Origin: Rhodospirillales bacterium BBD 1991-14
GTDB lineage: Bacteria; Pseudomonadota; Alphaproteobacteria; Kiloniellales; Kiloniellaceae
Direction: 5' to 3'
DNA length: 64,000 nucleotides
Assembly: GCA_001657395.1 (NCBI GenBank)
Contig: LYSY01000001.1
Span: 248,001 to 312,000, forward strand
The notes beneath the pieces are model-generated. The model was not told the origin of the DNA. It searched no databases and saw only the letters and a program-made list of their open reading frames with translations. The position numbers and the translations under genes are program-made. Positions 28,617 through 47,124 of this stretch are shown here, piece by piece (position 1 is the first letter of the stretch; each line of letters begins with the position of its first letter).

Positions 28617-28627
28617 TTGTATACCAA
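28617..28627. promoter_or_regulatory. GntR-type operator candidate (TTGTATACCAA)
   Basis: TTGTATACCAA centred on GTATAC, 74 bp before the GntR start, in the AT-richer leader 28503-28700. The ten-base core T(T/G)GTATACCA recurs at 36730 and 40218, each before an oxalate-island transcription unit, which suggests autoregulation by the GntR protein. A loose TTGTCG/TATTGT promoter (28593-28598, 28615-28620) would overlap it. Confidence 0.6.
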
Positions 28628-28700
28628 GAACCAGACGCCAGCGCCGAAGCTGGCTGCGGCGTCGGGGCCCCTGCCACGACGGAACGGACCGATCCCGCCG

Positions 28701-29390
28701 ATGTTGCCGAACAAGCTCGAAGTCAAGCCGATCGAGACGACCTTCAGCTTGAAGGAGCACATCTACGAGACGCTGCGCGACGGCATAACCTCCATGAACA
28801 TCTATGCCGACGACGCCCAGCTGAAGCTGGACGAGCGGCAGCTTTCCGAACAGCTCGGTATCAGCCGCACGCCGATCCGCGAAGCTCTGGCACGCCTGGA
28901 GCAGGAGGGGCTGGTCACCGTCATTCCGCGCCGCGGCGTATTCATCGTCCGCAAGTCGCGCAAGGAAATCCTGGAGATGATCACGGTCTGGGCGGCGCTG
29001 GAAAGCATGGCCGCCCGGCTGATCACCCAGAACGCCTCCGACGAGGGTATCGCCTCGCTGCGCAAGCTGTTCACCTCCTTCGAGAACGGGCAGGTCCAGG
29101 CGCACATTGATGAGTACTCTGACCGCAACATCGAGTTTCATCAGTCGATCCTGGAGCTCAGCGGCTGCGCTCTGTTGAAGGAGACCGCCGATCGCCTGTT
29201 CATTCACATGAAGGGTATCCGGGCCCGGACGATTTCGGAACAGGACCGGGCCAAACGATCGATCATCGACCACCTGCACATCATCGAGGCGCTGGAAGCC
29301 CGCGACACCGAACTCGCGGAGCGGCTGGTGCGCGAACACACTTTGAATCTGGCGGCGCACATCGAGGCGCACGTCGATTATCTCGACTGA
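28701..29390 (+). CDS. GntR-family (FadR/VanR-type, FCD domain) transcriptional regulator
   Basis: 229 aa from the ATG at 28701; the open frame starts earlier but the winged-helix homology begins after LEVKPIETTF. The winged helix is at about residues 20-85 (LSEQLGISRTPIREALARLEQEGLVTVIPRRGVFI). The helical FCD effector domain follows (about 95-225), with the metal/ligand positions Asp/His in YSDRNIEFHQSILELSG and HLHIIEALEARD. FadR-type regulators sense organic acids or acyl-CoA. It heads the oxalate island and shares the direction of oxc, so it probably responds to oxalate, formate or a CoA ester. Confidence 0.92.
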   Translation: MLPNKLEVKPIETTFSLKEHIYETLRDGITSMNIYADDAQLKLDERQLSEQLGISRTPIREALARLEQEGLVTVIPRRGVFIVRKSRKEILEMITVWAALESMAARLITQNASDEGIASLRKLFTSFENGQVQAHIDEYSDRNIEFHQSILELSGCALLKETADRLFIHMKGIRARTISEQDRAKRSIIDHLHIIEALEARDTELAERLVREHTLNLAAHIEAHVDYLD

Positions 29391-29487
29391 GTGAGGCAAT
29401 CGTCGGGCGCAGAGGCGAAGCCGAACAAGGCCCGCACAGAAAACCAAGTCGCCAAGGCGAAGCGTTCTTTTTTGGGAGCAATCAAAG

Positions 29488-31233
29488 ATGTCAGCATCCG
29501 TACAGAGCCTTGATGCCACCGTGGAACAAGCCGCCGAGTCAGAGGCTCTGACCGACGGCTTTCACCTCGTCATCGACGCGCTGAAGCTCAACGGCATCAA
29601 CACCATCTACAACGTGCCGGGCATCCCGATCACGGACCTGGGCCGCTACATGCAGGCCGAGGGCATGCGGGTCCTGTCGTTCCGCCATGAGCAGCACGCC
29701 GGCTACGCCGCCGCCATCGCCGGCTTTCTGACCAAGAAGCCCGGGGTCTGCCTGACGGTCTCCGCGCCCGGCTTTCTCAACGGCCTGACGGCCCTGGCCC
29801 ATGCGACGACCAACTGCTTCCCCATGATCCTCATCAGCGGGTCTTCCGAGCGGGAGATCGTCGACCTCCAGCAGGGCGACTACGAGGAAATGGACCAGCT
29901 CGCCATCGCCAAGCCGCTCTGCAAGGCGGCCTACCGGGTCCTGCATGCAGAGGACATCGGCATTGGCATCGCCCGGGCCATCCGCTCGGCGGTGTCCGGG
30001 CGGCCCGGCGGTGTCTATCTCGACCTGCCGGCCAATCTGCTGGGTCAGGTCATGAACGCGGAAGCCGGTCAGCAGTCCCTCGTGAAAGTCGTCGACGCGG
30101 CGCCGCGCCAGCTGCCGGCGCCCGAGGCCGTCGCGCGGGCGCTGGAGGTGCTGAAAGGCGCAAAGCGGCCCCTGATCATCCTTGGCAAGGGGGCTGCCTA
30201 CGCCCAGGCCGACGAGGAGATCCGTGCCCTGGTCGAGAAAAGCGGCTTTCCCTATCTGCCGATGAGCATGGCCAAGGGCCTGCTGCCCGATACCCATCCG
30301 CAGTCGGCCGGCCCGGCCCGCTCGCTAGTGCTGAAGGAAGCCGATGTCGTCCTGATGATCGGTGCGCGGCTCAACTGGCTGCTCTCCCACGGCAAGGGCA
30401 AGACCTGGGGGAACGCGCCGAAGAAGTTCGTCCAGATCGATATCGAGCCGAAGGAGATGGACAGCAACGTCGAGATCGCCGCCCCCCTGGTGGGCGACAT
30501 CGGTTCCTGCGTCTCCGCACTGCTGGAGGCGATGGGCGACGGCTGGGCGCTGCCGCCCGCCGACTGGACCGAGGCCGTCACGGCGAAGAAGGATGCCAAC
30601 ATCGAGCGCATGGCCCCGCGGCTGCAGAACAACAACGTGCCGATGGACTTTCACGGCGCCCTGGGCGTGCTGCGCACGATCATCGCCGAGCGGCCGGATG
30701 CCATCCTTGTGAACGAAGGGGCGAACACCCTCGATTTCGCGCGCAGCATCATCGATATGTACAAGCCCCGCAAGCGCCTGGACGTCGGAACCTGGGGCGT
30801 CATGGGCATCGGTATGGGCCAGGCCATCGCGGCGGCGGTTGAGACCGGGCTGCCGGTGCTGGCCGTCGAGGGCGACAGTGCCTTCGGCTTCTCGGGCATG
30901 GAGATCGAGACGATCTGCCGCTACAACCTGCCGATCTGTGTGGTGGTCTTCAACAACGGCGGCATCTATCGCGGCACCGATGTCAACCCGACCGGCGGCA
31001 CGGACGCGGCGACCACCGTCTTCGTCAAGGATGCCCGCTACGACAAGATGATGGAGGCCTTCGGGGGCGCCGGCTACTACGCGACCTCGCCCGACGAGCT
31101 TCGCCGCGCGGTCAATGAGGCCATGGACTCCGGCCGGCCGGCCCTGGTGAACGCGGTCATCGACGAGGCGGCGGGCACGGAAAGCGGCCGCATCGGCAAT
31201 CTCAATCCGCAGAGCGTGGTTGCCAAGAAGTAG
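29488..31233 (+). CDS. oxc: Oxalyl-CoA decarboxylase
   Basis: 581 aa thiamine-diphosphate enzyme converting oxalyl-CoA to formyl-CoA and CO2. The cofactor-activating Glu is at residue 68 ([12 protein letters not shown]), and the ThDP-Mg motif is [19 protein letters not shown] followed by [17 protein letters not shown]. The C-terminus GRIGNLNP closely resembles characterised Oxalobacter-type enzymes, separating it from acetolactate synthase and benzoylformate decarboxylase. A GGGAG ribosome site precedes the ATG. It works as a cycle with the frc product encoded 43 bp downstream. Confidence 0.95.
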
Positions 31234-31276
31234 CCCAGCTCCAACGAGTCAAACCTTCAGAATAGAGGAGCACGGT

Positions 31277-32554
31277 ATGAAAGCTCTCGAAGGCGTACGC
31301 ATTCTGGACTTCACCCACGTTCAGTCCGGGCCGACCTGCACCCAGCTTCTGGCGTGGTTCGGCGCCGACGTGATCAAGGTGGAACGGCCCGGCGTCGGCG
31401 ACGCCACCCGCGGCCAGCTGCGCGACATCCCGGATGTCGACAGCCTCTATTTCACCATGCTGAACCACAACAAGCGCTCCATCACGCTCAACACCAAGAG
31501 CGAGAAGGGCAAGGAGGTTCTGACCAAGCTGGTGCAGTCCTGCGACGTGCTGGTGGAGAACTTCGCCCCCGGTGCGCTGGACCGCATGGGCTTCGGCTGG
31601 GAGCAGGTTCAGAAGATCAATCCGCGGATGATCTACGCCTCCGTCAAGGGCTTCGGCCCCGGGCCCTACGAGGACTGCAAGGTCTACGAGAACGTCGCCC
31701 AGTGCACCGGCGGCGCCGCCTCGACCACCGGCTTCCTGGACGGGCCGCCGACCGTGACGGGCGCGCAGATCGGCGATTCCGGCACCGGCCTGCATTTGGC
31801 CCTGGGCATCGTCACGGCACTGTTCCACCGCGAGAAGTCGGGCAAGGGCCAGCGGGTGCTGGCGGCCATGCAGGACGGGGTCTTGAACCTCTGCCGGGTG
31901 AAGCTGCGCGATCAGCAGCGCCTTCAGCACGGACCTCTGAAGGAATACAGCCAGTTCGGCCAGGGCATTCCCTTCGGTGAGGCGACACCGCGGGCCGGGA
32001 ACGACTCCGGCGGCGGCCAGCCCGGCTGGATCGTCAAGTGCAAGGGCTGGGAGACCGATCCCAACGCCTACGTCTACTTCATCACCCAGGCCGCCGTCTG
32101 GGGCAATATCTGCGATCTGATCGGCAAGCCCGAGTGGAAGGAAGATCCCGGCTACGCGAAGCCGGAGGCGCGGCTCGACAAGATCCCGCAGATCTTTGAC
32201 ACCATCGAGGGCTGGACCAAGACCAAGACCAAGTTCGAGGTCATGGAGGCCTGCAACCCGCTGAACATCCCCTGCGGGCCGATCCTCTCGATGCAGGAGC
32301 TGTCGGAGGAGCCGAGCCTGCGGGAAACCGGCACCATCGTCGAGGTCGACCACCCGGAGCGCGGCAAGTACCTGACCGTGGGCAATCCCGTCAAACTGTC
32401 GGACTCGCCCGCCGAGGTGACCCGCTCGCCGCTGCTGGGCGAGCACACCAACGAGATCCTGAGCCAGGTCCTCGGGCTTTCCGAGGACGAGATCCAGGAG
32501 ACCTGGGCCAGCGGGGCCCTGGGCGACCTGCCGGAGCAGGCCGCCGCTGAATGA
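31277..32554 (+). CDS. frc: Formyl-CoA:oxalate CoA-transferase
   Basis: 425 aa class III CoA-transferase, start at the ATG at 31277 with AGAGGAG 6 bp before it. The family N-terminus [33 protein letters not shown], the catalytic Asp167 in [12 protein letters not shown] (Asp169 in Oxalobacter Frc), and the glycine-rich loop [10 protein letters not shown] typical of Frc rather than other CaiB-like proteins are visible. It moves CoA from formyl-CoA to oxalate, releasing formate and regenerating oxalyl-CoA for Oxc. Co-transcription with oxc is likely. Confidence 0.95.
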
Positions 32555-32655
32555 CCGAAGAGTGTCGCCGCCGGGTCAGCCGATCCGGCGGGAATCGTTG
32601 TTGATCACACCGTCCTCTCTGAGGCACGGCCATTACACGGGGGAAACAGGCAGGC

Positions 32656-33570
32656 ATGCGGATTGTCGTCCATGGCCAGCAGGCCTTTGGCAAGGCCGTG
32701 CTCGAGAAGCTTCTGGAGCGTGGGGAGAATGTGGTTGGGGTGTTCTGCGCCCCGGACAAGGAGGGGCGGCCGACGGACCCACTGAAGGAGTTCGCCCTGG
32801 AGAAGGGCCTGCCGCTGCACCAGCCCGCGTCCTGGAAGACGCCGGAGGCCGAAGAGCTGATGCGCTCCTTCGCGCCGGACCTCTGCGTCATGGCCTATGT
32901 AACGCTTTTCGTGCCCCAGCCGGTGCTCGACGTTCCGGAGAAGGGGACGATCCAGTACCACCCCTCATTGCTGCCTTTGCACCGTGGCCCCAGCTCGATC
33001 AACTGGCCGATCATCATGGGCCGCAAGGAAACCGGCCTGACGATCTTCTGGCCCGACGAGGGGCTCGACGAGGGGCCGGTGCTGCTGCAGAAGACGGTGG
33101 AGATCGGTCCCGACGACACGCTGGGTACGCTCTACTTCAACCAGCTCTTCCCCATGGGTGTGGAAGCCATGGTCGAGGCGGTGGACCTTGTGCGCGACGG
33201 CAAGGCACCGTCGATCCCTCAGGATCACAGCCAGAAGACCTATGAGAGCTGGTGCCGCAAGGCCGATGCGGAGATCGATTGGTCGAAGCCGGTGGACGAG
33301 GTCTATAACCTGATACGCGGGACCAACCCCCAACCGGGCGCCTGGACCACGTTCAACGGCAACGAGGTGAAGATCTTCGACTCCGGCAAGGTCGAAGGTG
33401 AGGGAGACCCCGGCAGCGTCATCGCCGCCGAGGACGACAGTTTCACCGTGGCCGCTGCAGGCGGCGCCATCCGCGTGGACCGGGTGCGCCCGCACGACGA
33501 CAAGAAAATCTCCGCCGGGGACTTCGCGGCCAAGGCCGGCCTCAGCGTCGGCGCCAAGCTCGGGACCTAG
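32656..33570 (+). CDS. Stand-alone 10-formyltetrahydrofolate hydrolase/formyltransferase-like protein
   Basis: 304 aa formyltransferase-fold protein. It matches the N-terminal hydrolase domain of 10-formyl-THF dehydrogenase (ALDH1L1) better than methionyl-tRNA formyltransferase: YHPSLLPLHRGPSSINWPIIMGRKETGLTIFWPDEGLDEGPVLLQ carries the catalytic His102 and Asp138, spaced 36 residues apart as in ALDH1L1. The C-terminal domain (GTNPQPGAWTTFNGNEVKIF) is the formyltransferase-C fold. It could hydrolyse 10-formyl-THF to formate plus THF or move the formyl group to an unknown acceptor. It sits just before fhs, which runs the opposite direction. Confidence 0.85.
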   Translation: MRIVVHGQQAFGKAVLEKLLERGENVVGVFCAPDKEGRPTDPLKEFALEKGLPLHQPASWKTPEAEELMRSFAPDLCVMAYVTLFVPQPVLDVPEKGTIQYHPSLLPLHRGPSSINWPIIMGRKETGLTIFWPDEGLDEGPVLLQKTVEIGPDDTLGTLYFNQLFPMGVEAMVEAVDLVRDGKAPSIPQDHSQKTYESWCRKADAEIDWSKPVDEVYNLIRGTNPQPGAWTTFNGNEVKIFDSGKVEGEGDPGSVIAAEDDSFTVAAAGGAIRVDRVRPHDDKKISAGDFAAKAGLSVGAKLGT

Positions 33571-33662
33571 CCAACACCATCCAGCGTCTTGCTCCGCCCG
33601 TCTTGGCGCGGTGCGAGGACCCCCTACAGACAGCGATCAATTGAAATCAGGCAGAAAAAACG

Positions 33663-35336
33663 ATGGCCAAGTCCGATATCGAAATTGCCCGCGAAGCCAG
33701 CATGAAGCCGATCACCGAGATCGGTGCCAAGCTCGACATGCCCGCCGATGCCCTGATGCAATACGGTCCCAGCAAGGCGAAGGTCAGCTTCGACTACTTG
33801 GAATCCCTCAAGTCGAAAAGTGACGGGCGGCTGATCCTGGTGACTGCGATCTCGCCGACCCCGGCAGGCGAGGGCAAGACCACCACCACCGTGGGTCTGG
33901 GCGACGGCCTCAACCGGATCGGCAAGAAGGCCATGATCTGCCTGCGCGAGCCCTCGCTGGGTCCCTGCTTCGGCATGAAGGGCGGGGCGGCCGGCGGCGG
34001 CTATGCCCAGGTGGTGCCCATGGAGGACATCAACCTGCACTTCACGGGCGACTTCCACGCCATCACCTCGGCGCACAACCTGCTCTCGGCCCTGATCGAC
34101 AACCACATCTACTGGGGCAACGAACTGGGCATCGACGAGCGCCGGGTCTCCTGGCGCCGGGTGCTGGACATGAACGACCGGGCGCTGCGCGACACCGTGA
34201 CCTCGCTCGGCGGCGTCGCCAACGGCTTTCCGCGCCAGACCGGCTTCGACATCACCGTGGCCTCGGAGGTCATGGCGATCTTCTGCCTGGCCGACGGGCT
34301 GGATGACCTGCAGACGCGCCTGGGCAATATCGTCGTCGCCTACACCCGTGACCGTAAGCCGATCTACGCGCGCGACCTGAAAGCCGAAGGTCCGATGACG
34401 GTTCTGCTGAAGGATGCGCTGATGCCCAACTTGGTGCAGACTCTGGAGAACAACCCGGCTTTCATCCACGGCGGCCCCTTCGCCAACATCGCCCACGGCT
34501 GCAACTCGGTCTCGGCCACCAAATCGGCCCTCAAGCTGGCCGACTATGTGGTGACCGAAGCCGGCTTCGGCGCCGACCTCGGCGCCGAGAAGTTCTTCGA
34601 CATCAAGTGCCGCAAGGCCGGGCTCAATCCGGAAGCGGTTGTCATCGTCGCCACCGTGCGCGCGCTGAAGATGCACGGCGGCGTCGCCAAGGACGCCCTC
34701 GGCGACGAGAATGTCGAAGCGGTGAAGAAGGGTCTGGAGAACCTCGGCCGCCATGTCGCCAACGTGGCCAAGTTCGGCGTGCCCGCCGTGGTGGCCATCA
34801 ACCGCTTCGTGAAGGACAGCGAGGCCGAGCTGGCGGCAATCCAGGAATTCACCCGGACGCTCGGCGTCGACGCGGTGGTCTGCGAGCACTGGGGCAAGGG
34901 CTCGGAAGGCACCGAGGAACTGGCGAACAAGGTGGTCGGCCTGCTCGACGGCGGCAAGGCCGATTTCAAGCCGCTCTACGAAGACGGCATGCCCCTGTTC
35001 CAGAAGATCAATACCATCGCCAAGGAGATCTATGGCGCCGAGGAAGCCATCGCCGACAAGAAGATCCGCGATCAGCTGAAGCAGTGGGAGGATGCGGGCT
35101 ACGGCGACCTGCCGGTCTGCATGGCCAAGACCCAGTACAGCTTCTCGACCGACCCGAACCTGCGCGGCGCGCCCAGCGGCCACGCAGTGCCGATTCGCGA
35201 GGTGCGTCTGTCTGCCGGTGCCGGCTTCATCGTTGTCATCTGCGGCGAAATCATGACCATGCCGGGCCTGCCGCGGGTGCCTGCCGCCAACAGCATTGCG
35301 CTCGACAAGGCGGGATTGATTCAAGGCCTGTTCTAG
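33663..35336 (+). CDS. fhs: Formate-tetrahydrofolate ligase
   Basis: 557 aa ATP-dependent enzyme joining formate and THF to 10-formyl-THF. The P-loop [23 protein letters not shown], the substrate motifs [40 protein letters not shown], and the [20 protein letters not shown] block are hallmark sequences. In the island it channels formate from the Oxc/Frc cycle into one-carbon metabolism, in parallel with oxidation by formate dehydrogenase. The ribosome site is weak (CAGGCAG). This enzyme is common in methylotrophic and oxalotrophic alphaproteobacteria. Confidence 0.95.
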
Positions 35337-35472
35337 GGCTTGTTAGAAAGCCAGGGAGCTTTGCGGTTCGCGCCGTCGGCGGGTAGGAGTCGTCACGACC
35401 GCTAAGTGTCGGTACTAAACGTCTCTGCGGATGTGCGAGCCCGCGGGACCTGCTGGCAGGGAGATCTGCGAA

Positions 35473-36333
35473 ATGACTGTCCGAACGATCCTGGTGCCGG
35501 TGCGTGGCGATGGCTTGGGCGAGAGCGTGCTGGACCATGCCTGGGCGCTGGCCAAGCGTCATGTTGCTCATCTGGAAGTGCTGCATTGTCGCCCGAAGCC
35601 TCAGGACATGATCCCCTACGGCGTGCCGATTCCAGCCAGCCTGATGAAGACCATCACGACGTCGGCCACGGCCCTGGCGGATGAGGAAGAAGGCCAGATC
35701 CGCAAGCTGTTCGACGACTACTGTTCCAGGCGGGACATTGTGGAAGTCGATGGCTTTCCCTGGCCGGCGGACCGCGTCTCGGCCACCTGGCGCGAGGCAA
35801 CCGGAAAGCAGGCGAATGTCATCGGCCGGCGCGGCCGGCTGGCGGACCTCATCGCGGTCGCGCAGCCGGACCGGGACCGGAATCTCGGACTCAACACCCT
35901 GCAGGCGGCGCTGCTCGAGTCCGGCAAGCTGGTCCTCATGTGCCCCCCGCGTCCCGTCGAATCCCTGGGCGCGCGGGTGGCCATCGCCTGGAACGGCAGC
36001 GGGGAGGCGGCGCGTGCGATGACCACTGCCCTGCCGATTCTGAGAGAGGCCGAGGCGGTCACCTTGTTGGCGCCCGGCGACACGAAGCTTCCGGTCGCGG
36101 TCGAGGAGGCAAAGATCTATCTCGACACGCACGGCGTGACGTCCGCCTGCGAGCAGTTCACCGCCAAGTCCGCGGCGGTGGCCCAGGCGCTGCTCGATTC
36201 GGCGCGCCGGCTTGGCTGCGACTGCCTGCTTATGGGAGCTTACGGACAGAGCCGGCAGCGCGAGTTGATCCTTGGCGGGGTGACCCAATACGTTGTCGAC
36301 CACGCCGATCTGCCCATTCTGTTTATGCATTGA
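35473..36333 (+). CDS. Universal stress protein family (UspA-like, two domains)
   Basis: 286 aa from the ATG at 35473. Two Usp folds are visible: the N-terminal TILVPVRGDGLGESVLDHAWALAKR and a C-terminal half (about 165-286) with the LLMGAYGQSRQRELILGGVTQYVVDHADLPILFMH ending, matching the nucleotide-binding G-x2-G-x9-G motif. The N-terminal half lacks a clear nucleotide motif. Its place between fhs and the transporter genes suggests induction with oxalate or formate metabolism, perhaps against acid or formate stress. Confidence 0.85.
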   Translation: MTVRTILVPVRGDGLGESVLDHAWALAKRHVAHLEVLHCRPKPQDMIPYGVPIPASLMKTITTSATALADEEEGQIRKLFDDYCSRRDIVEVDGFPWPADRVSATWREATGKQANVIGRRGRLADLIAVAQPDRDRNLGLNTLQAALLESGKLVLMCPPRPVESLGARVAIAWNGSGEAARAMTTALPILREAEAVTLLAPGDTKLPVAVEEAKIYLDTHGVTSACEQFTAKSAAVAQALLDSARRLGCDCLLMGAYGQSRQRELILGGVTQYVVDHADLPILFMH

Positions 36334-36696: not shown

Positions 36697-36729
36697 GAAC
36701 AGTGGACCTGACGCCTAACTCGCGGTATT

Positions 36730-36740
36730 TTGTATACCAC
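36730..36740. promoter_or_regulatory. GntR-type operator candidate (TTGTATACCAC)
   Basis: Shares the core TTGTATACCA exactly with the site at 28617 and sits 145 bp before the transporter binding-protein gene. It supports co-regulation of oxalate uptake with the gntR-oxc unit. Confidence 0.6.
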
Positions 36741-36884: not shown

Positions 36885-37886
36885 ATGAGAGTTACCAGAG
36901 GAATTCTAGCTGGCGGCGTGCTGGCTTTGACAATGGGCGTCGCAGTGTCAGGTGCAACGATCTCCGAAGCCCAGGCGTGGGAGCCCAGGAAGCCCGTCGA
37001 GATGATCATCATGGCAGGCACCGGTGGCGGTGCCGACCAGTTGGCGCGGCTGATCCAGGGCATCATCGACCAGAACGACCTGTCGCCGAGACCTTTCATC
37101 CCGATCAACAAGCCGGGTGGCTCGGGCGCCGAGGCGCTGCGCTACCTGCAGGACAAGGCCGGTGACGATCACACCGTCTTGGTGACGCTCAACAGCTACT
37201 ACACCACACCGATCATCAACCAGGGCCTGGGCGTCGACGTGACCAAGTTCACGCCGATCGGTCTCATGGCGCTGGATACGTTCCAGCTTTGGGTCACCTC
37301 GGACAGCGGTATCGAGTCGCTGGACAACTGGGTCGAGACGGTCAAGGCAGCGGACAACTGGAACGTCGGCGGCACCGGCAAGGGGCAGGAGGACTCGATC
37401 CTCTTCGCCATGCTCCAGGCTGAGTTCGGCATCGACAACATCACCTACATTCCCTTCCCGGGCGGGGGCACCGTTGCCAAGAACCTGATCGGAAAGCACA
37501 TTGCCTCGACGGTGAACAATCCATCGGAGCAGATGCAGTTCTACCGCGCCGGCCAGAGCCGTCCGTTGGTCCAGTTTACCGACGAACGGCTGGGGGCTTT
37601 CCCGGACGTGCCGACCAGCAAGGAGCTGGGGCATGACATCGTCTACTTCATGCAGCGCTCCTTCAACGCGCCTCCGGGCATGTCGAGCGAAGCCCAGGAG
37701 TGGTACATCAGCCTGTTCGAGAAAGTCTTCAACTCCGAGCAGTGGCAGAGCTACTGCAAGGAAGAGGGCCTGATGTGCGAGAGCTGGGTTGCCGGCGCCG
37801 ATCTGGCCGCCTTCCACGATCAGCAACTGGCGCGTCACCAGGCCCTGATCGAAAAGGTCGGTGCTGAAGCGATCACCGGCGAGTAA
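36885..37886 (+). CDS. TTT-family (TctC/Bug-type) periplasmic solute-binding protein
   Basis: 333 aa with a Sec signal peptide (MRVTRGILAGGVLALTMGVAVSG, cleavage near SEAQA). The mature protein starts WEPRKPVEMIIMAGTGGGADQLARLIQ, matching the Bug fold loop that binds carboxylates through main-chain and water contacts; the KPGGSGAEALRYL and PFPGGGTVAKNLIGKH segments follow. Bug proteins bind di- and tricarboxylates. In this island the ligand is most simply oxalate, but that is inference. A GGGAGGTAA ribosome site precedes the ATG. Confidence 0.9.
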   Translation: MRVTRGILAGGVLALTMGVAVSGATISEAQAWEPRKPVEMIIMAGTGGGADQLARLIQGIIDQNDLSPRPFIPINKPGGSGAEALRYLQDKAGDDHTVLVTLNSYYTTPIINQGLGVDVTKFTPIGLMALDTFQLWVTSDSGIESLDNWVETVKAADNWNVGGTGKGQEDSILFAMLQAEFGIDNITYIPFPGGGTVAKNLIGKHIASTVNNPSEQMQFYRAGQSRPLVQFTDERLGAFPDVPTSKELGHDIVYFMQRSFNAPPGMSSEAQEWYISLFEKVFNSEQWQSYCKEEGLMCESWVAGADLAAFHDQQLARHQALIEKVGAEAITGE

Positions 37887-37893
37887 CCGTTAT

Positions 37894-38024: not shown

Positions 38025-38528
38025 ATGACGGTCCGTACTGCCGAGTTGTTGGTTGCGGTGATCCTCGCGCTCTTGTCCCTCGGTCTGATGTGGAAGAGCA
38101 CGGAACTCAACATCGGCTGGGTCGCGGGGGCGGGACCGGGCGGTGGCGCCTGGCCCTTCTGGCTCTCCGTCGGCATGCTGGTCACTTCGCTGTGGACCAT
38201 CCTGCGCTGGTTCCGCCGCGTGACGCCGCAGTCACGCTCCAAAGAGATCTTCATGAGCGCCGACACCCTGGCCATCGTCGGTCCGGTGGTGGTCGGGCTG
38301 CTGCTGCTGTTGGCCGGCACGCATCTCATCGGCATGTACGCCGCGGTCTTCCTGTTCATGATCGCCTTCGTGCGCTTCCTGGGCCGGCATTCCTGGTTCA
38401 TCACGCTCGCCCTGGCGGTGGCGGCACCGGTGGCGATGTTCCTGCTGTTCGAATGGGCGCTGACGACACCGCTGCCCAAGGGCATCACCGAGCCGGCGTT
38501 CTATCCGATCTACGATCTCATCTACTGA
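38025..38528 (+). CDS. TTT-family transporter small membrane subunit (TctB-like)
   Basis: 167 aa with four hydrophobic segments (about residues 5-25, 38-58, 80-105 and 115-150), the topology of TctB-type proteins. The AGAGPGGGAWPFWLSVGML segment is typical of the family. A GGGAGG ribosome site lies upstream. It works with the binding protein and the large permease as a secondary importer powered by proton or sodium gradients. Confidence 0.85.
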   Translation: MTVRTAELLVAVILALLSLGLMWKSTELNIGWVAGAGPGGGAWPFWLSVGMLVTSLWTILRWFRRVTPQSRSKEIFMSADTLAIVGPVVVGLLLLLAGTHLIGMYAAVFLFMIAFVRFLGRHSWFITLALAVAAPVAMFLLFEWALTTPLPKGITEPAFYPIYDLIY

Positions 38529-38617: not shown

Positions 38618-40132
38618 ATGGAAACCATCATCGATCCTCTCCTTGGCGGGCTGCTCGAAGCCATTCAACCGGTCAACCTCATGATGATGGTGATCGGCTG
38701 CATCATCGGGCTCTTCGTCGGGGCGATGCCCGGCCTCGGGTCGGTCAACGGCGTTGCGATCCTGCTGCCGATCACGTTCCTCGTGCCGCCGAACGCGGCG
38801 ATCATCTTCCTGGCGGCGATCTACTACGGGGCCATGTACGGCGGTGCCGTCTCGTCGATCACGCTGGGGATACCGGGGGCCTCGACCGCTGTCGCCACCG
38901 TCTTCGACGGCCGGCCACTGGCCATGACGGGCCGCGGCGATCAGGCGCTGATGGCGGCCGCCCTCGCGTCCTTCATCGGCGGCACGATCGCCGCCGTGCT
39001 GTTCACCATCGCGGCACCGCCGCTGGCCAACTTTGCCCTGTCCTTCGGGCCACAGGAAGAGTTCGCCCTCATGGTGCTGGCCTTCGCCACCTTCATCGGC
39101 CTGGGCGGCGACGACATTCCGAAGACCATGTTCTCGATCTTCATCGGCCTGGTGCTGGCGGCGGTCGGCTACGACATCATTTCGGGCAATCCGCGTCTGG
39201 TATTCTTCGACATCGACGGGTTCCTGCGCGGTGTCAGCTTCCTGGTGCTGGCCATCGGCATCTACGGCATCGGCGAGATCCTCTGGACCATGGAACAGTC
39301 CGGCGGAAAGATGCAGGTGCACTATGTGAAGTCGTCCTTTCGTTCCGTCGTCGAGAACATGAAGAAGGTCAAAAACTACCTCACGCAGACGGTGTTCAGC
39401 GGCGTGCTCGGCTACTTCGTCGGCATCCTGCCCGCAGCCGGCGCTACGCCGGCTTCGCTGATGGCCTACGGTTTGTCCAAGACCTTCTCGAAAGACCCCG
39501 AGTCGTTCGGCAAGGGCAATGTGGTCGGCGTGGCAGCGCCCGAGTCGGCCAACAACGCCGCTTCCACCGGGTCCATGCTGCCGATGCTCACCCTCGGCAT
39601 CCCCGGTTCGCCCACCACCGCGATCCTTCTGGGCGGCATGATCATCTGGGGGCTGCGCCCCGGCCCGCTGCTGTTCGTCGAGCATCCGGACTTCGTCTGG
39701 GGGCTGATCGGTTCGATGTACATGGCCAACCTCTTCACGGTGATCATCAACATTGCGTTCATCCCGCTCTTTGTGCGGGTTCTGGTCATGCCTTTCACCA
39801 TCCTGGCGCCGATCATCTTCGTGCTCTGCCTGGTCGGCGGCTACTCGCCGAACTCGTCGCTCCACGACGTCTGGCTGATGGTGCTCTTCGGGGTCTGCGG
39901 TTACATCCTGCGCAAGCTGGACTACCCGGTGGCGCCGGCCGTGCTGGCCATCGTTCTGGGCGGCCTTGCCGAGCGGTCGCTGCGTCAGTCGCTGCTGTCT
40001 TCGCAGGGCGATCCGATGACCTTCCTGGAACGTCCCTTGTCGGCGACCATCTTCTTCTGCGCTTTCGCGCTGGTGATGGTGCCGATCATCCGCCGCTTCC
40101 TGTCAAAACGACAGCCGGCGACCGGAACCTGA
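38618..40132 (+). CDS. TTT-family transporter large membrane subunit (TctA-like)
   Basis: 504 aa with about 11-12 hydrophobic segments. The TctA signature regions are visible: GLFVGAMPGLGSVNGVAILLPITF near residue 30, YYGAMYGGAVSSITLGIPGASTAVATVFDG, and the second-half repeat GYFVGILPAAGATPASLMAYGL, ESANNAASTGSMLPMLTLGIPGSPTTAILLGGM. It forms the transport channel. It is the last gene before a hairpin (40164-40186), so the three transporter genes form one unit. Confidence 0.93.
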   Translation: METIIDPLLGGLLEAIQPVNLMMMVIGCIIGLFVGAMPGLGSVNGVAILLPITFLVPPNAAIIFLAAIYYGAMYGGAVSSITLGIPGASTAVATVFDGRPLAMTGRGDQALMAAALASFIGGTIAAVLFTIAAPPLANFALSFGPQEEFALMVLAFATFIGLGGDDIPKTMFSIFIGLVLAAVGYDIISGNPRLVFFDIDGFLRGVSFLVLAIGIYGIGEILWTMEQSGGKMQVHYVKSSFRSVVENMKKVKNYLTQTVFSGVLGYFVGILPAAGATPASLMAYGLSKTFSKDPESFGKGNVVGVAAPESANNAASTGSMLPMLTLGIPGSPTTAILLGGMIIWGLRPGPLLFVEHPDFVWGLIGSMYMANLFTVIINIAFIPLFVRVLVMPFTILAPIIFVLCLVGGYSPNSSLHDVWLMVLFGVCGYILRKLDYPVAPAVLAIVLGGLAERSLRQSLLSSQGDPMTFLERPLSATIFFCAFALVMVPIIRRFLSKRQPATGT

Positions 40133-40163
40133 GGGCGGCCGGCTCGGCTGAACGGTTCCCGAG

Positions 40164-40186: not shown

Positions 40187-40217
40187 GGGGAGAAAGGGAT
40201 TGCCGCCGCCGGCCTTC

Positions 40218-40228
40218 TGGTATACCAT
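40218..40228. promoter_or_regulatory. GntR-type operator candidate (TGGTATACCAT)
   Basis: TGGTATACCA is a perfect 10-bp palindrome, 92 bp before the CoA-ligase beta-subunit gene and after the hairpin that ends the transporter unit. It shares nine of ten core bases with the sites at 28617 and 36730. Confidence 0.6.
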
Positions 40229-40319
40229 ATGCCAGAGAATGAGATGCTTGGCGCATAAGCTAAGAGAACCTGCTTATGGCGTTATTATCCAATGATAAAT
40301 CGGATAGGGCGGGCGGACC

Positions 40320-41495
40320 ATGAACCTTCACGAACATCAGGCAAAAGAGATCCTTGGGCGCTACGGCGTCCCGAGCCCGGCCGGCAGTCTGGTCTCCCGG
40401 GCCGACGCCGCGGCGGCGGCGGCCAAGTCGCTCGGCGGGTCGAGCTGGGCGGTCAAGGCCCAGATCCATGCCGGGCTGCGGCACGATGCCGGGGGCGTTC
40501 GCCTGGTTTCCGGTACGGAGGCCGCAGCGACCGCTGCCGGCGAGCTTCTCGGCAAGCGTCTGGTGACGCCGCAGACCGGCCCGAGGGGCAAGCTGGTGCG
40601 CTCGGTCTACATCGAGCAGGCGGTGGGCGCCGCGCGCGAGCTCTACCTCGCGATCCTCATCGACCGCAGCCAGGGGCGGGTGGCCTTTCTGGCGTCGCGC
40701 ACAGGCGGCAGCGATATCGAACAGCGCGCCCAGGCGGAGCCCGGGTCGCTGCGCCATCTGACGGTCGACGGCGATCGCGGTTTCGACCCGCAGGCAGCGG
40801 TCGGCCTGGCTGCGGATCTGGGCCTTGAAGGCCGGGCCGCATCCCAGGCGGTGGAGATCATGGCGGCCCTCTACAAGGCGTTTCTGGAACTGGATGCCAG
40901 CCTTATCGAGATCAACCCGCTGGCGCTGACGCACGAAGGCGGGCTGACCGCACTCGATGTCAAGATGGTCCTCGATGACAATGCTCTCTTCCGCCACAAG
41001 GATCTGGCGGCGCTGCGCGACGTGGAGGAGCTGGACCCGACCGAACTGGAGGCCCAGCGTTTCGCACTGAACTATGTCCACCTCGACGGCAACATCGGCG
41101 TCATGGTCAACGGCGCCGGCTTGGCGCTGGCGACCCTGGACCTGCTGAAGCAGCGGGGCGGCGCGCCGGCCGACTTCATGGACATCCGGCCGGAGGCCAG
41201 CCGCGACCAGGTGGCCGAAGGCTTCCGTCTGCTGCTGCGCAACCAGGACATCGATGCCATCCTGGTGAACGTCTACGGCGGCGGCATTCTGCGCTGCGAC
41301 ACGGTGGCGGAGGGAATCGCCGCGGCCTGCAAGTCGGAAGGGCTGCGTGTGCCGCTGATCGTCAGGGCGGCCGGGACCAACGGCGAGCTGGCCCGCAAGA
41401 CTCTGATGGCCCAGGGCGTGGCCTTCACGCCGGCGAGTTCCATCGGCGCGGCGGTCGCTTCGGCCGTCGAGGCCGCGGGCCGGGAGGCGGCGTGA
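40320..41495 (+). CDS. ADP-forming CoA ligase beta subunit (SucC/MtkA-like), candidate oxalate-CoA ligase
   Basis: 391 aa, ATP-grasp subunit of the succinate/malate-CoA ligase family: MNLHEHQAKEILGRYGV, WAVKAQIHAG, GKRLVTPQTGPRGKLV (as in malate-CoA ligase), LIEINPLALT, LDGNIGVMVNGAGLA and NVYGGGILRCD. Two loops differ from the SucC forms I remember: the nucleotide loop HAGGRGKAGG reads HAGLRHDAGG, and DVGGGAT near the acid pocket reads DIRPEAS. These changes suggest an acid other than succinate. Context (oxc, frc, oxalate transporter, shared operator) suggests oxalate or formate. It is coupled to the alpha subunit with overlapping stop and start. Confidence 0.85.
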   Translation: MNLHEHQAKEILGRYGVPSPAGSLVSRADAAAAAAKSLGGSSWAVKAQIHAGLRHDAGGVRLVSGTEAAATAAGELLGKRLVTPQTGPRGKLVRSVYIEQAVGAARELYLAILIDRSQGRVAFLASRTGGSDIEQRAQAEPGSLRHLTVDGDRGFDPQAAVGLAADLGLEGRAASQAVEIMAALYKAFLELDASLIEINPLALTHEGGLTALDVKMVLDDNALFRHKDLAALRDVEELDPTELEAQRFALNYVHLDGNIGVMVNGAGLALATLDLLKQRGGAPADFMDIRPEASRDQVAEGFRLLLRNQDIDAILVNVYGGGILRCDTVAEGIAAACKSEGLRVPLIVRAAGTNGELARKTLMAQGVAFTPASSIGAAVASAVEAAGREAA

Positions 41496-42373: not shown

Positions 42374-42640
42374 TGGCGCGGCCAGGGGAGCGCCACCGGC
42401 TCTGGTCCGAACAGCCGCCCAGGCGCGTGTCGCTCCTTCGCAGTTCCACTGTGGAAAAGGTCGGTTCTGGTCAATTTTTAGCCGCTCCAGGCAGGTTGAT
42501 TCCGTTTAGAAAACGCTGGAATCCGATCTATTCTGGTCCCTGGCTGTCCTCCCGGTCGTCGGGGAGCACGAAGCCACGCAAAACAAGGGTCGCCGGGCCC
42601 AGGGCACCGGCGGCTTATTTATTGGTTCGGAGGCAGATCG

Positions 42641-44344
42641 ATGCCAGAGGGAACGCCGCGCCCGTTTGAGCGGCAGATACACCCGGGCTCGGGCCGGCGC
42701 AAAGCCCCCCTGACGCCCAAAGGCCGCCAGCTCGACAGTGAAGCGCTGGCCGAGGTTCAGGCGCTGCTGGGCGAGCGCCCGCGCCGGGCCGACCTGCTGA
42801 TCGAACATCTGCACCTGATCCAGGATGCCCATGGCCATCTCTCGGCGCGTCATCTGCGCGCTTTGGCGGAGGAGATGAATCTGCCGATGGCCGCCGTCTA
42901 CGAAGTGGCTTCCTTCTATGCTCACTTCGATATCGTGCTGGACGGCGAGGCCCCGCCGCCACCGCTGACGATCCGGGTCTGCGAGTCCATCACCTGCGAG
43001 ATGATGGGCGCACAGGACCTGCTGCAGGCGCTGCCGCAGGAAGTGGGTGAGCAGGTGCGCGTGGTTCCGGCCCCCTGCATGGGACGGTGCCACTGCGCCC
43101 CGGTGGCCGAGGTCGGCCACCGTCACATCGATCACGCGACTTTGGAGAGCCTCTCGGCGGCGGTGCAGGACGACCATCATCCCGTCATCCCGGACTACAA
43201 GGACTACGACGGCTACACTGCGGAGGGCGGTTACGCCCTCTTGCGTGCCTGTCTGGGCGGCGAGCGGACACCGGAAGAGCTGGTCGAGGCGCTTTCCCAC
43301 GCCGGCCTGCGCGGCCTCGGCGGCGCCGGCTTCCCCACCGGCAAGAAGTGGGAGATCGTGCGCAGCTATCCCGGCCCGCGGCTGATGACCATCAACGGCG
43401 ACGAGGGCGAACCGGGCACCTTCAAGGACCGCCACTACCTGGAAACCGATCCGCACCGCTTCCTGGAAGGCGCCCTTATCGCCGCCTGGGCGGTGGGCTG
43501 CGAGCGCTGCTACATCTACATGCGCGACGAATACCCGGCGGTGCTGGAGATCCTGCGCCGGGAGATGGCCAAGCTGGAGGCGGCGGGTCTCACCGAGCAT
43601 TGTCCGCTGGAACTGCGGCGCGGGGCCGGGGCCTACATCTGCGGCGAAGAGTCGGCGATGATCGAGTCCATCGAGGGCAAGCGCGGGCTGCCGCGCCACC
43701 GCCCGCCCTACATCGCCGAGGTCGGGCTGTTCGGCAAGCCGACCCTGAACCAGAACGTCGAGACCGTGTACTGGGTGCGCGACATCGTGGAGAAGGGCGC
43801 CGAGTGGTTCGCCGGCCATGGCCGCAACGGCGGCAAGGGGCTGCGCTCCTACTCCGTATCCGGCCGGGTGAAGTCGCCGGGCGTGAAGCTGGCCCCCGCC
43901 GGCATTTCGGTCCGGGAATTGATCGATGAGTTCTGCGACGGCATGGAAGAAGGGCATGCATTCCATGCCTACCTGCCGGGCGGCGCTTCGGGCGGCATCC
44001 TGCCGGCCTCTATGGGCGACGCGCCCCTGGAGTTCGGGGCCCTCGACAAGTTCGGCTGCTTCGTCGGTTCCCATGCCGTGGTCGTGCTGTCCGACAAGGA
44101 CGATGTGAAGGCGGCAGCGCTGAACCTCATGCGTTTCTTCGAGGACGAGTCCTGCGGCCAGTGCACGCCCTGCCGCAACGGCACCGAGAAGGCGGTGAAG
44201 CTGATGCGCGAGGAGCGTTGGGACGTGCCCTTGCTTGAGGAACTCGCAGTGGTGATGCGCGACGCCTCCATCTGCGGCCTCGGCCAGGCGGCGCCCAATC
44301 CTCTGTCCTGTGTCCTCAAGTATTTCCCGGAGGAACTGAAATGA
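42641..44344 (+). CDS. NAD-dependent formate dehydrogenase beta subunit (NuoE-NuoF fusion)
   Basis: 567 aa diaphorase subunit. Residues ~30-170 are NuoE-like with a [2Fe-2S] set C114, C119, C146 and C150. The rest is NuoF-like: GLRGLGGAGFPTGKKW and GDEGEPGTFKDRHYLE for FMN and NAD(H) binding, then [4Fe-4S] cysteines C505, C508, C511 and C545. This fused architecture is that of the tungsten/molybdenum Fdh1B of Methylobacterium rather than the separate gamma and beta subunits of FdsABG. It passes electrons from formate to NAD. A CGGAGG ribosome site precedes the ATG; an ATGA overlap joins it to the alpha gene. Confidence 0.92.
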   Translation: MPEGTPRPFERQIHPGSGRRKAPLTPKGRQLDSEALAEVQALLGERPRRADLLIEHLHLIQDAHGHLSARHLRALAEEMNLPMAAVYEVASFYAHFDIVLDGEAPPPPLTIRVCESITCEMMGAQDLLQALPQEVGEQVRVVPAPCMGRCHCAPVAEVGHRHIDHATLESLSAAVQDDHHPVIPDYKDYDGYTAEGGYALLRACLGGERTPEELVEALSHAGLRGLGGAGFPTGKKWEIVRSYPGPRLMTINGDEGEPGTFKDRHYLETDPHRFLEGALIAAWAVGCERCYIYMRDEYPAVLEILRREMAKLEAAGLTEHCPLELRRGAGAYICGEESAMIESIEGKRGLPRHRPPYIAEVGLFGKPTLNQNVETVYWVRDIVEKGAEWFAGHGRNGGKGLRSYSVSGRVKSPGVKLAPAGISVRELIDEFCDGMEEGHAFHAYLPGGASGGILPASMGDAPLEFGALDKFGCFVGSHAVVVLSDKDDVKAAALNLMRFFEDESCGQCTPCRNGTEKAVKLMREERWDVPLLEELAVVMRDASICGLGQAAPNPLSCVLKYFPEELK

Positions 44345-47124
44345 GCCTGCAGGAAGCGAGCCAGACCATCCATTTCACCCTCGACGGGCGCGAGGTCGAG
44401 GCCTTTCCCGGGGAGACCATCTGGCAGGCTGCGGAGCGCGCCGGTACGCGCCTGCCGCATCTCTGCTACAGTCCGGAGCCGGGCTACCGCTCCGACGGCA
44501 ACTGCCGCGCCTGCATGGTGGAGATCGAGGGGGAACGGGTCCTCGCAGCCTCTTGCATCCGCGAGCCGCGCGACGGCATGGTGGTGACCTCGGCCAGCGA
44601 ACGGGCGGAGAAGGCCCGGGCCATGGTCTTCGAACTGCTGGTCGCCGACCAGCCGGAACGCGCGACCTCGCATGACCCGGAGAGCAAGTTCTGGCACTGG
44701 GCCGCCGACCTGGGCGTCACCGAAAGCCGCTTTCCGGCCCGCGAGACCTGGGCACCCGATGTCAGCCATCCGGCCATGGCGGTGCATCTGGACGCCTGCA
44801 TCAACTGCAATCTCTGTGTGCGCGCCTGCCGCGAGGTCCAGGTCAACGACGTCATCGGCATGGCCTACCGCGGCCACGGCTCCAAGGTGATCTTCGACTT
44901 CGACGACGCCATGGGCGAGTCCACCTGTGTGGCCTGCGGCGAGTGCGTACAGGCCTGCCCCACCGGCGCGCTGATGGAATCCAGCCTGCTGGACGAGAAG
45001 GGGACCCGGATCCACTTCGAGGACCGCTCGGTGGACACGCTTTGCCCCTACTGCGGGGTGGGCTGCCAGACCAAGGTCCACGTGAAGGACGACAAGATCC
45101 TCTACATCGACGGGCGCGACGGGCCGGCCAACCAGAACCGGCTCTGCGTGAAGGGCCGCTTCGGCTGGGACTACATCTACAGCCCGCACCGCCTGACGAC
45201 GCCGCTGATCCGCCGCGACGATGCGCCGAAGAAGTGGGACGATCAGGTCGATCCGGCGAACCCCTGGACCCACTTCCGCGAGGCGAGCTGGGAGGAGGCG
45301 CTGGACCGCGCCGCCGGCGGCTTGAAAAAGGTTTATGAGGAGAAGGGCCCGTCCGGCCTTGCCGGCTTCGGTTCGGCCAAGGGCTCCAACGAGGAGGCCT
45401 ATCTCTTCCAGAAGCTGATCCGCACCGCCTTTCACACCAACAACGTCGATCACTGCACGCGGCTCTGCCACGCCTCATCGGTGGCGGCGCTGATGGAGGG
45501 CATAGGCTCGGGCGCGGTCACCGCGCCTTTCACGGCGGCCAAGGACAGTGACTGCATGATCATCATCGGTGCGCGGCCGGAGCAGAACCACCCGGTGGCC
45601 GCCACTTTCCTGAAGAACGCGGCCAGGCGCGGCGCCAAGATCATCGTCATGGACCCGCGCAAACAGCAGATCGACCGCTACGCCCATACCCATCTGCAGT
45701 TCAAGCCCGGCCAGGACGTGGCGCTCCTCAACGCGATGATCCACACCATCATCGAGGAGGGGCTGACCGACCAGCAGTACATCCAGGCCCATACCAGCGG
45801 CTTTGAAGACCTGAAGACCATGGTGCAGGACTTCTCGCCGGAAGCCATGGCGGAGGTCTGCGGCATCGACGCGGCGACGATCCGCGAGGTAGCGCGGGTT
45901 TACGCCCGCAGCGAGCGCTCCATCATTTTCTGGGGCATGGGCATCTCCCAGCACGTCCACGGCACCGACAACTCCCGCTGCCTGATCGCGCTCACCATGA
46001 TCACCGGCCATGTCGGCCGCCCGGGCACCGGCCTGCACCCCCTGCGTGGCCAGAACAACGTCCAGGGCGCCTCCGACGCCGGGCTGATTCCCATGGTCTA
46101 CCCCGACTACCGTTCGGTGGAACTGGAGGAGGTGCGCAAGGAGTACGAGGCGTTCTGGGACACGAAGCTCGATCCCAAGCGCGGGCTGACGGTGGTGGAG
46201 ATCGTCGATGCCATCATCGCCGACCAGATCACGGGCATGTACATCATGGGCGAGAACCCGGCCATGTCGGACCCCGACCAAGCCCACGCCCGCCAGGCGC
46301 TCGCAAAGCTGGAACACCTGGTGGTGCAGGACATCTTCCTGACCGAGACCGCCTGGCATGCAGACGTCATCCTGCCGGCCTCGGCCCATGCCGAGAAGTG
46401 GGGCAGCTTCACCAACACCAACCGCGAGGTCCAGGTCGCCCGCCCGGTCGCAGCGCCGCCGGGCGAAGCGCGCCAGGACTGGGAGTTGATCCAGGAACTG
46501 GCAACACGTCTGGGGCTGGACTGGACCTACACGCACCCGAGCGATGTTTTCGCCGAGATGACCGAGGTTATGCCGTCGCTGGCCAACATCACCTGGGACC
46601 GCCTGGTGCGCGAGGACGCGGTCACCTATCCGGTGGATGCGCCGGACAAGCCCGGCAACGAGATCCTCTTCGCCGAAGGCTTCCCAACCAGCGATGGCCG
46701 CGCGAAGATCGTGCCGGCGGGGCTGGTACCGCCGGACGAACTGCCGGACGCCGACTATCCCCTGGTCCTGACCACCGGGCGGATGCTGGAGCACTGGCAC
46801 ACCGGCGCCATGACCCGCCGGGCCAGCGTGCTCGACAGCCTGGAGCCGGAGGCGGTGGCCAGCCTGCACCCGCGCCAGCTTTCGGCCATGGCCCTGAACG
46901 CCGGCGATACGGTGAAGGTCAGCACGCGGCGCGGCGAGATCGCGCTCACCGTCCGCGCCGACCGCGACGTGCCGGAGGGTATGGTCTTCATCCCCTTCTG
47001 CTTCAACGAGGCGGCGGCCAACATGCTGACCAACCCGCAGCTCGACCCCTTCGGTAAAATCCCGGAGTTCAAGTTCTGCGCCGCCAGGGTCGAGAAGATC
47101 GAGGCCTTCGTCGCCGCGGAGTAG
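44341..47124 (+). CDS. NAD-dependent formate dehydrogenase alpha subunit (Mo/W-bis-MGD)
   Basis: 927 aa catalytic subunit. An N-terminal [2Fe-2S] domain (C42, C55, C58, C72) is followed by two ferredoxin-type clusters (HLDACINCNLCVRACRE and STCVACGECVQACPTG) and the CPYCGVGC cluster that starts the molybdopterin domain. The active-site pair Cys376-His377 is in HCTRLCHASSVAAL, so this is a cysteine, not selenocysteine, enzyme. MGENPAMSDPDQ and LTTGRMLEHWHTGAMTRR belong to the cofactor-binding part. It oxidises formate to CO2. No fdhD or cofactor genes are adjacent; they must lie elsewhere. Confidence 0.94.
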   Translation: MSLQEASQTIHFTLDGREVEAFPGETIWQAAERAGTRLPHLCYSPEPGYRSDGNCRACMVEIEGERVLAASCIREPRDGMVVTSASERAEKARAMVFELLVADQPERATSHDPESKFWHWAADLGVTESRFPARETWAPDVSHPAMAVHLDACINCNLCVRACREVQVNDVIGMAYRGHGSKVIFDFDDAMGESTCVACGECVQACPTGALMESSLLDEKGTRIHFEDRSVDTLCPYCGVGCQTKVHVKDDKILYIDGRDGPANQNRLCVKGRFGWDYIYSPHRLTTPLIRRDDAPKKWDDQVDPANPWTHFREASWEEALDRAAGGLKKVYEEKGPSGLAGFGSAKGSNEEAYLFQKLIRTAFHTNNVDHCTRLCHASSVAALMEGIGSGAVTAPFTAAKDSDCMIIIGARPEQNHPVAATFLKNAARRGAKIIVMDPRKQQIDRYAHTHLQFKPGQDVALLNAMIHTIIEEGLTDQQYIQAHTSGFEDLKTMVQDFSPEAMAEVCGIDAATIREVARVYARSERSIIFWGMGISQHVHGTDNSRCLIALTMITGHVGRPGTGLHPLRGQNNVQGASDAGLIPMVYPDYRSVELEEVRKEYEAFWDTKLDPKRGLTVVEIVDAIIADQITGMYIMGENPAMSDPDQAHARQALAKLEHLVVQDIFLTETAWHADVILPASAHAEKWGSFTNTNREVQVARPVAAPPGEARQDWELIQELATRLGLDWTYTHPSDVFAEMTEVMPSLANITWDRLVREDAVTYPVDAPDKPGNEILFAEGFPTSDGRAKIVPAGLVPPDELPDADYPLVLTTGRMLEHWHTGAMTRRASVLDSLEPEAVASLHPRQLSAMALNAGDTVKVSTRRGEIALTVRADRDVPEGMVFIPFCFNEAAANMLTNPQLDPFGKIPEFKFCAARVEKIEAFVAAE

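Follow-up and report, generated by a model that had tools for sequence, protein, structure and literature searches.

The window analysed here, 64,000 nucleotides of contig LYSY01000001.1 from Rhodospirillales bacterium BBD 1991-14, carries a cluster of oxalate and formate genes in which a pair resembling sucC and sucD stands between a tripartite tricarboxylate transporter (TTT) and a formate dehydrogenase (FDH). The evidence inclines us, modestly, to the view that this SucCD-like pair founds an unrecognised subfamily of ADP-forming, phospho-histidine acyl-CoA ligases acting on the smallest acids, hitherto annotated as succinate-CoA ligase, that would make oxalyl-CoA or formyl-CoA and prime oxalate catabolism in Alpha- and Gammaproteobacteria equipped with a dedicated TTT importer of oxalate. 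For the locus as a whole, the reading as a GntR-controlled oxalate catabolic regulon with a dedicated ADP-forming oxalate acyl-CoA ligase priming the cycle stands only a hair above an even chance. What is new here is the ligase subfamily; the pathway is already known, and its genes are assembled in a conserved variant. The source bacterium is Pelagibius-like: its genome measures 5.5 Mb, and its TctA shares 99% identity with the TctA of a named Pelagibius metagenome-assembled genome and 84% with that of P. marinus.

Thirteen genes of the forward strand, from gntR through fdhA (28701-47124), make up the cluster. As judged by Pfam, equivalog models and open reading frames (ORFs), every gene named in a first-pass annotation of this DNA is there, rightward and in the order described, and so are the three shared operator-like boxes that it had reported. 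Its start coordinate, 28617, marks where the first box begins and not a gene; gntR starts with an ATG at 28701. The features are as follows (window coordinates; cut-offs of the models after the scores).

28617..28626, no strand: operator-like box TTGTATACCA, preceding gntR by about 75 bp
28701..29390, + strand: gntR, FCD-type GntR regulator of 229 aa, ATG start (Pfam FCD 83.5 bits, GntR 59.3 bits)
29488..31233, + strand: oxc, oxalyl-CoA decarboxylase (TIGR03254 1020 bits, cut-off 739; 1003 bits to 7ayg)
31277..32554, + strand: frc, formyl-CoA:oxalate CoA-transferase, ATG at 31277 (TIGR03253 725 bits, cut-off 504; 574 bits to 1pqy, YfdW)
32656..33570, + strand: fmtL, formyl-transferase fold, nearest to the ALDH1L1 10-formyl-tetrahydrofolate (10-formyl-THF) hydrolase domain (Pfam Formyl_trans_N and Formyl_trans_C)
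33663..35336, + strand: fhs, formate-tetrahydrofolate ligase (NF010030 933 bits, cut-off 652)
35473..36333, + strand: usp, universal stress protein-like (Pfam Usp)
36730..36739, no strand: operator-like box TTGTATACCA, before tctC
36885..37886, + strand: tctC, TTT solute-binding protein (PF03401 84 bits)
38025..38528, + strand: tctB, TTT small membrane subunit (PF07331 56 bits)
38618..40132, + strand: tctA, TTT large membrane subunit (PF01970 485 bits)
40218..40227, no strand: operator-like box TGGTATACCA, a perfect palindrome that begins 102 bp ahead of sucC
40320..41495, + strand: sucC-like, beta subunit of a putative distinct ADP-forming CoA-ligase subfamily, with NVYGGGILRCD insertion and DIRPEAS loop
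41492..42373, + strand: sucD-like, alpha subunit with an unchanged phospho-His motif, RRMGHAG, and altered GPNSQG and SRSASLTSE
42641..44344, + strand: fdhB, formate dehydrogenase diaphorase subunit, a NuoE-NuoF fusion (809 bits to 7e5z_B)
44341..47124, + strand: fdhA, FDH1-type formate dehydrogenase catalytic subunit (TIGR01591 744 bits, cut-off 666; 1551 bits to 7vw6_A)

The SucC ATP-grasp family has two matches in the host genome, a canonical copy on contig C9 and the copy in the cluster, 48% identical to each other. The latter passes the general SucC model NF001913 (443 bits against a cut-off of 370; 588 for the canonical copy) and its partner passes the SucD model NF004230 (388 against 336 bits). 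The motifs RRMGHAG, GEIGG and IEINP are kept, with His246a, Glu208a and Glu197b in the roles given in the accessible part of PMC10342173, and the catalytic machinery appears intact by sequence. The beta subunit differs in its C-terminal domain, which has DIRPEAS and NVYGGGILRCD in place of the GGGA loop and the NIFGGIxRCD motif. Since succinate reportedly binds in this very domain of succinyl-CoA synthetase (SCS), and since both changes fall within it, the acid site of the pair may be considered as rebuilt. An AlphaFold2 model of the beta subunit (mean pLDDT 89.2) gave succinyl-CoA synthetase chains in its best 24 Foldseek rows.

The two changes go together. Among 78 distinct SucC of at least 300 aa in the fetched loci (shorter genes, among them the end of sucC present in L052, being left out), 32 have the one-residue insertion (NxxGGG..CD, or GGG type) and 46 do not; the GGGA loop is missing in 32/32 of the former and kept in 46/46 of the latter, which are ordinary succinate or malate ligases. 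In the 32, the rebuilt loop reads DxRP (23), DxPP (6) or DIRTT (3). These sequences came from a search of the order (18), from loci fetched by tctA (10, a source biased towards TTT linkage), from a search of the class (2), from extra stretches of the order (1) and from the window (1), and two pairs among them are >95% identical. A class-wide profile search of 385 genomes gave, among the best 30 matches, three with both changes (one being the host genome) and 27 with neither. Tree building places the 32 on one side of a single branch (99/99), found in 100% of 200 bootstrap trees; with its long branches, this tree does not prove that the GGG type of Alpha- and Gammaproteobacteria arose only once. 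The first-pass annotation had seen an ADP-forming, SucCD-like ligase; by its sequence, the pair is no ordinary SucCD and forms a separate, third subfamily, and it would be neither the SucCD of the citric acid cycle nor the malate thiokinase of the serine cycle. It shares with SucCD the fold, the ATP-grasp domain and the phospho-His and Glu motifs, and differs from it by the insertion, the changed acid-site loop and the oxalate-type regulation and linkage. With the AMP-forming oxalyl-CoA synthetase AAE3, it would have in common the predicted overall reaction, from oxalate to oxalyl-CoA; the fold and chemistry of AAE3 are unrelated to the SucCD type.

Genomic linkage ties this ligase to oxalate genes. 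A verified GGG-type SucC is present in 22 of 61 genomes of the order, and frc accompanies it in 21 of these 22, the exception (G338) having a ligase contig that begins 0.5 kb before sucC. In the 39 other genomes, frc is found in 12 (Fisher p 5e-7, ignoring relatedness), three of which (G301, G305 and G316) have a partial SucC match of unverified motif. Both genes lie on one contig, at most about 14 kb apart, in 17 of the 22. Besides, the box TNGTATACNA occurs ≤250 bp upstream of sucC in 22/32 GGG-type genes and in 0/46 ordinary ones, one of the latter having <150 bp of upstream DNA. Outside the order, the ligase of G079 (L163/L192) is apart from the frc-tct cluster; its unlinked sucCD promoter still has a box, and a PanE-like gene adjoins it.

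The boxes themselves were discovered by reading intergenic DNA; a generic repeat search across the cluster did not find an operator signal. In the window, the pattern TKGTATACCA has four matches at three places, the third being palindromic; from 100 shuffles, 0.00 would be expected. Genome-wide, TNGTATACCA occurs at four places, three of them inside the oxalate locus. The genome-wide count of five matches against six for a reversed control pattern shows no enrichment of the total, so that the argument for the boxes rests on their position. The fourth genomic place (G000:C19:563760-563769, at about 5761 of L146) lies between L146 ORFs 4395-5759 and 6024-6770, neither of which was matched in an NCBIfam search at 1e-40. 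Across 98 loci of relatives (1.6 Mb; a chosen set, with near-duplicates and with L092, L093 and other fetched loci left out), 81 boxes were found against 2.4 expected in mononucleotide shuffles. For 72 of the 81, a cluster gene follows within 300 bp downstream: gntR in 28 cases, sucC in 22 and tctC in 16, the remaining 6 preceding the genes for serine-glyoxylate aminotransferase (SGA), FdhB, Oxc or a PIG3-type protein; a further 9 of the 81 are not assigned. This distribution amounts to phylogenetic footprinting and outlines a regulon to which both transporter and ligase belong. GntR is the candidate protein for binding the boxes.

The transporter is complete, TctA, TctB and TctC all being above their Pfam cut-offs. 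Among 73 loci with a TctA relative fetched from public genomes, frc, oxc, fmtL, fhs or the gene of an alternative thiamine enzyme (TPPalt, see below) occurs in 52, many of the others being cut by contig ends. In the 34 well-flanked loci (>9 kb before the tctA start and >6.5 kb after), 29 have one of these genes alongside, and 28 have frc; the five without oxalate genes are L057, L071, L090, L092 (35% TctA identity) and L093 (33%). Many loci of the Roseobacter group read gntR-oxc-frc-fmtL-fhs-usp-tctCBA, the gene order of the window, and TTT is combined with Oxc/Frc in many Alphaproteobacteria and in some Gammaproteobacteria. The combination is thus a recurrent arrangement, not peculiar to the host genome. 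In three Pelagibius relatives (L128-L130), another TTT occupies the same slot with a box upstream (tctA 64-66%, tctC 50-51% identity), despite Oxc, Frc and Fhs at 92-95%. The proposal that transporter and ligase belong to the oxalate system is borne out by the 29/34 tctA loci, the 21/22 ligase genomes with frc and the shared box; the contrary case, their homologues consistently occurring without oxc/frc, was examined in relatives and did not occur. Altogether, linkage and the shared box point to oxalate as the probable substrate of TctCBA.

Some side observations concern the transporter loci. In three other alphaproteobacterial loci (L196, L197 and L200), oxc-frc is accompanied by FDH1-type fdhBA and by a TTT of another kind (tctA 48-49%, tctC 35-37%), so that the link between TTT and oxalate genes may have arisen more than once. 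A family of about 580 aa (c12) is encoded directly 3' of tctA in L061 (11509-13251) and in the same place in L064, L065, L068, L073, L074 and L091, and it is also present in L213 and L214. For the L061 protein, no match was found in NCBIfam at 1e-20 or in Pfam at 1e-8; it has a Walker-A-like stretch, GASASGKSS, and an AceK identity of the family was ruled out (hhalign probability 0.1%). In ten loci (L028, L032, L044, L046, L047, L059, L062, L066, L071 and L084), two or three of the genes for serine hydroxymethyltransferase (SHMT), SGA and hydroxypyruvate reductase (HPR) adjoin the oxalate locus or the TTT genes, and a box precedes the aminotransferase gene in two of the loci so flanked.

Oxc and Frc exceed the cut-offs of their equivalog models, as they would in the Oxalobacter formigenes or Methylorubrum extorquens type of system. 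Their nearest structures are 7ayg for Oxc and YfdW, then formyl-CoA transferases, for Frc. All six key residues of OXC listed in the accessible part of PMC10192776 are found in the Oxc of the window (E56, Y120, E121, Y483, S553 and R555, mapped by motif to the published numbering and not by structure). The cluster differs from the known Oxc/Frc systems by a TTT in place of the OxlT antiporter, by the SucCD-like ligase and by the presence of Fhs and FDH inside one operator-sharing cluster. The gene directly upstream of 78 distinct frc is oxc in 50 cases, TPPalt in 22, and none or cut in 6, with both in no locus; this set includes loci fetched by Oxc, and the count favours oxc over TPPalt. TPPalt stands in the place of oxc, before an oxalate-type frc, in L030, L031, L034, L040, L042, L085, L089, L137, L138, L140-L142, L160, L203, L208, L211, L212, L214, L215 and L217-L219. 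It is about 25% identical to Oxc, with the 2-hydroxyacyl-CoA lyase 7pt3 as nearest structure (265 bits); the cofactor Glu is kept, and Y120, E121, Y483 and S553 are missing in 20/20 aligned sequences (the Y483 region being gapped). The Frc of these loci passes the oxalate Frc model in 4/4 cases tested. TPPalt is a candidate for a second oxalyl-CoA decarboxylase; alternatively, it might act as a lyase on another CoA ester.

On the formate side, Fhs and FdhA are likewise above their cut-offs. FmtL, whose fold is common to Fmt, scores 216 bits to ALDH1L1 hydrolase domains (4qpd) and 167 bits to Met-tRNA formyltransferases, and stays under the fmt equivalog cut-off (172 against 201.5). FdhB has NuoE- and NuoF-type domains within one chain, as read directly. 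Both FDH subunits resemble those of FDH1 of M. extorquens (PDB 7vw6/7e5z), the sole difference being the position inside an oxalate locus. Oxc, Frc, FDH and Fhs are ordinary members of their kinds.

In the mechanism that we propose, oxalate would be imported by TctCBA. Frc would then move CoA from formyl-CoA to oxalate, and Oxc would decarboxylate the resulting oxalyl-CoA to formyl-CoA and CO2, as their equivalog identity implies. Each turn would release formate, to be oxidised to CO2 with formation of NADH by the FDH1-type dehydrogenase; through Fhs and the 10-formyl-THF-handling FmtL, some of it would enter or leave the folate pool. FDH, Fhs and FmtL belong to families with such roles in formate and folate handling. 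The Frc/Oxc cycle should yield no net thioester and need a CoA ester to start, and it would be drained by CoA-ester hydrolysis and by oxalyl-CoA reduction, which is why a dedicated ligase is proposed. From oxalate, ATP and CoA, the SucCD-like enzyme is predicted to form oxalyl-CoA via a phospho-histidine, both priming and refilling the cycle. It might also feed a glyoxylate branch through a PanE-like reductase and then Gcl. The PanE family is the one to which the known oxalyl-CoA reductase belongs, and in L024, L029, L040, L042, L085, L160 and L192 a PanE-like gene adjoins the ligase or forms part of its locus. A neighbour of 350 aa (c6) is PanE-like as judged by eye. Oxalate is our preferred candidate for the ligase substrate because of these PanE-like neighbours and because the Frc of the TPPalt loci passes the oxalate-specific model. 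Such an assimilation branch is plausible, since the host genome has elsewhere a gcl (glyoxylate carboligase, 1164 against 711 bits) and a PanE relative (54%). The cluster had been described as complete, which holds for the path from oxalate to CO2; the likely assimilation genes lie outside it. As a separate observation, a PIG3-type zinc oxidoreductase gene precedes GGG-type sucCD in the gammaproteobacterial loci L029, L040, L042, L085 and L024, and tctC in L031.

Several observations weigh against a dedicated oxalate ligase. The box is wanting within 250 bp of 10/32 GGG-type sucC, and in a second genome outside the order, G184 (L193), the ligase is unlinked from frc with no box in the stretch. 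There, usp-like and carboxyl-transferase genes adjoin it and a transporter of the sodium:sulfate-symporter family is near; this context speaks against strict oxalate specificity and makes a second use of the GGG-type ligase possible. Nine genomes of the order, some incomplete, have frc and no candidate ligase, and sucCD was not found in the stretches fetched around oxc in eight other alphaproteobacteria (L194-L201); the GGG-type ligase is therefore not universal among Frc loci, nor required by each of them. The canonical SucCD of the host genome could also supply succinyl-CoA to Frc. Finally, the assignment of the acid-binding loops is based on what is reported for the SCS-succinate complex, and the loop varies between lineages (DxRP, DxPP or DIRTT), so that no conserved oxalate-binding residue can be named.

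These points leave room for other substrates. The ligase could activate formate, as an ADP-forming formyl-CoA synthetase priming the same cycle from its other end. Formate arises in every variant of the locus, formyl-CoA is maybe the only CoA ester common to all of them given a TPPalt without the OXC key residues, and priming by formyl-CoA is chemically equivalent; however, the 4/4 tested Frc of TPPalt loci suggest that oxalate is probably common too, and the PanE-like genes adjoining the ligase point to oxalyl-CoA. We regard formate activation as unlikely, if the least unlikely of the alternatives. Next in probability, and in our opinion doubtful, comes the idea that TTT and ligase handle another acid (e.g. 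a C2-C4 dicarboxylate or hydroxyacid) whose CoA ester would feed the formyl-CoA pool, with oxalate as one input. The surroundings of the ligase in L193, without frc, and the resemblance of TPPalt to 2-hydroxyacyl-CoA lyase would fit this idea, but linkage and a box common to Frc, Oxc and TTT across lineages speak against it.

A dedicated succinyl-CoA synthetase isoenzyme, with succinyl-CoA as CoA donor for Frc, is less likely again. It would agree with the SucC equivalog cut-off being passed and with Pseudomonas fluorescens, where, according to the accessible part of PMC2752808, an oxalate CoA-transferase exchanging with succinyl-CoA acts together with SCS, in the reverse direction. Against it, the acid-site loop and the GGG insertion separate 32/32 members from 46/46 ordinary enzymes, and the genome already has a canonical SucCD. 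As for a malate thiokinase of the serine cycle, the SucCD fold, the Fhs nearby and the SHMT, SGA and HPR genes near some oxalate loci might suggest it, and MtkAB is indeed of the same superfamily, as a C1-linked paralogue of SucCD. However, the SucC of the cluster is under the cut-off of the malate-CoA ligase model NF010647 (413 against 604 bits), a model on which one MtkA-like SucC scored 716. MtkA keeps the GGGA loop, has no insertion and has different neighbours: nine MtkA-like SucC of the same order retain DIGGGA and NIFAGINRCD, 7/9 of them are beside SGA, HPR or SHMT genes, and in the tree all are separated by the branch from the GGG type. On all four counts (score, motif, neighbours and tree) we reject this identity and consider it extremely improbable.

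Regarding the surroundings of the cluster, the word island, used for it before, should not be taken to mean a mobile element; the cluster is conserved in the genus, and no search was aimed at mobile elements. Upstream, at 25263-28502, a PtsI-type phosphoenolpyruvate phosphotransferase gene and dhaK suggest a dihydroxyacetone kinase operon, dependent on the phosphotransferase system, beside the oxalate locus. After fdhA, alaX-like and short-chain dehydrogenase/reductase genes (47401-48881) stand in the same position in the Pelagibius loci L022, L128 and L129 and probably have no relation to oxalate.

The observation of the first-pass annotation is confirmed; its interpretation is partly supported and, in the main, right in spirit. 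It did not know the combination of a TTT importer and an ADP-forming ligase with Oxc/Frc as described: the joining of a TTT with Oxc/Frc is seemingly absent from the literature searched, in that it was not found among the matches listed in the open-licence literature (a weak absence), but it is common in public genomes. With the same weakness, no ADP-forming oxalate-CoA ligase was found by title and beginning of the abstract among the matches listed, and no paper on Pelagibius and oxalate was found in that literature. In the accessible parts of two surveys of oxalotrophy (PMC12927642, PMC10192776), OxlT is the only oxalate transporter given.

Which marine organisms consume the carbon pool of oxalate is an open topic, as far as the accessible part of PMC10192776 goes. 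If our interpretation is true, an uptake system and a CoA-priming enzyme would be named for the Oxc/Frc cycle, and a likely systematic misannotation as succinate-CoA ligase would be corrected by a one-residue diagnostic. Besides, engineers of one-carbon pathways would have an ADP-forming formyl-CoA or oxalyl-CoA synthetase at their disposal, and the recurrence of the box across lineages makes the regulon directly testable.

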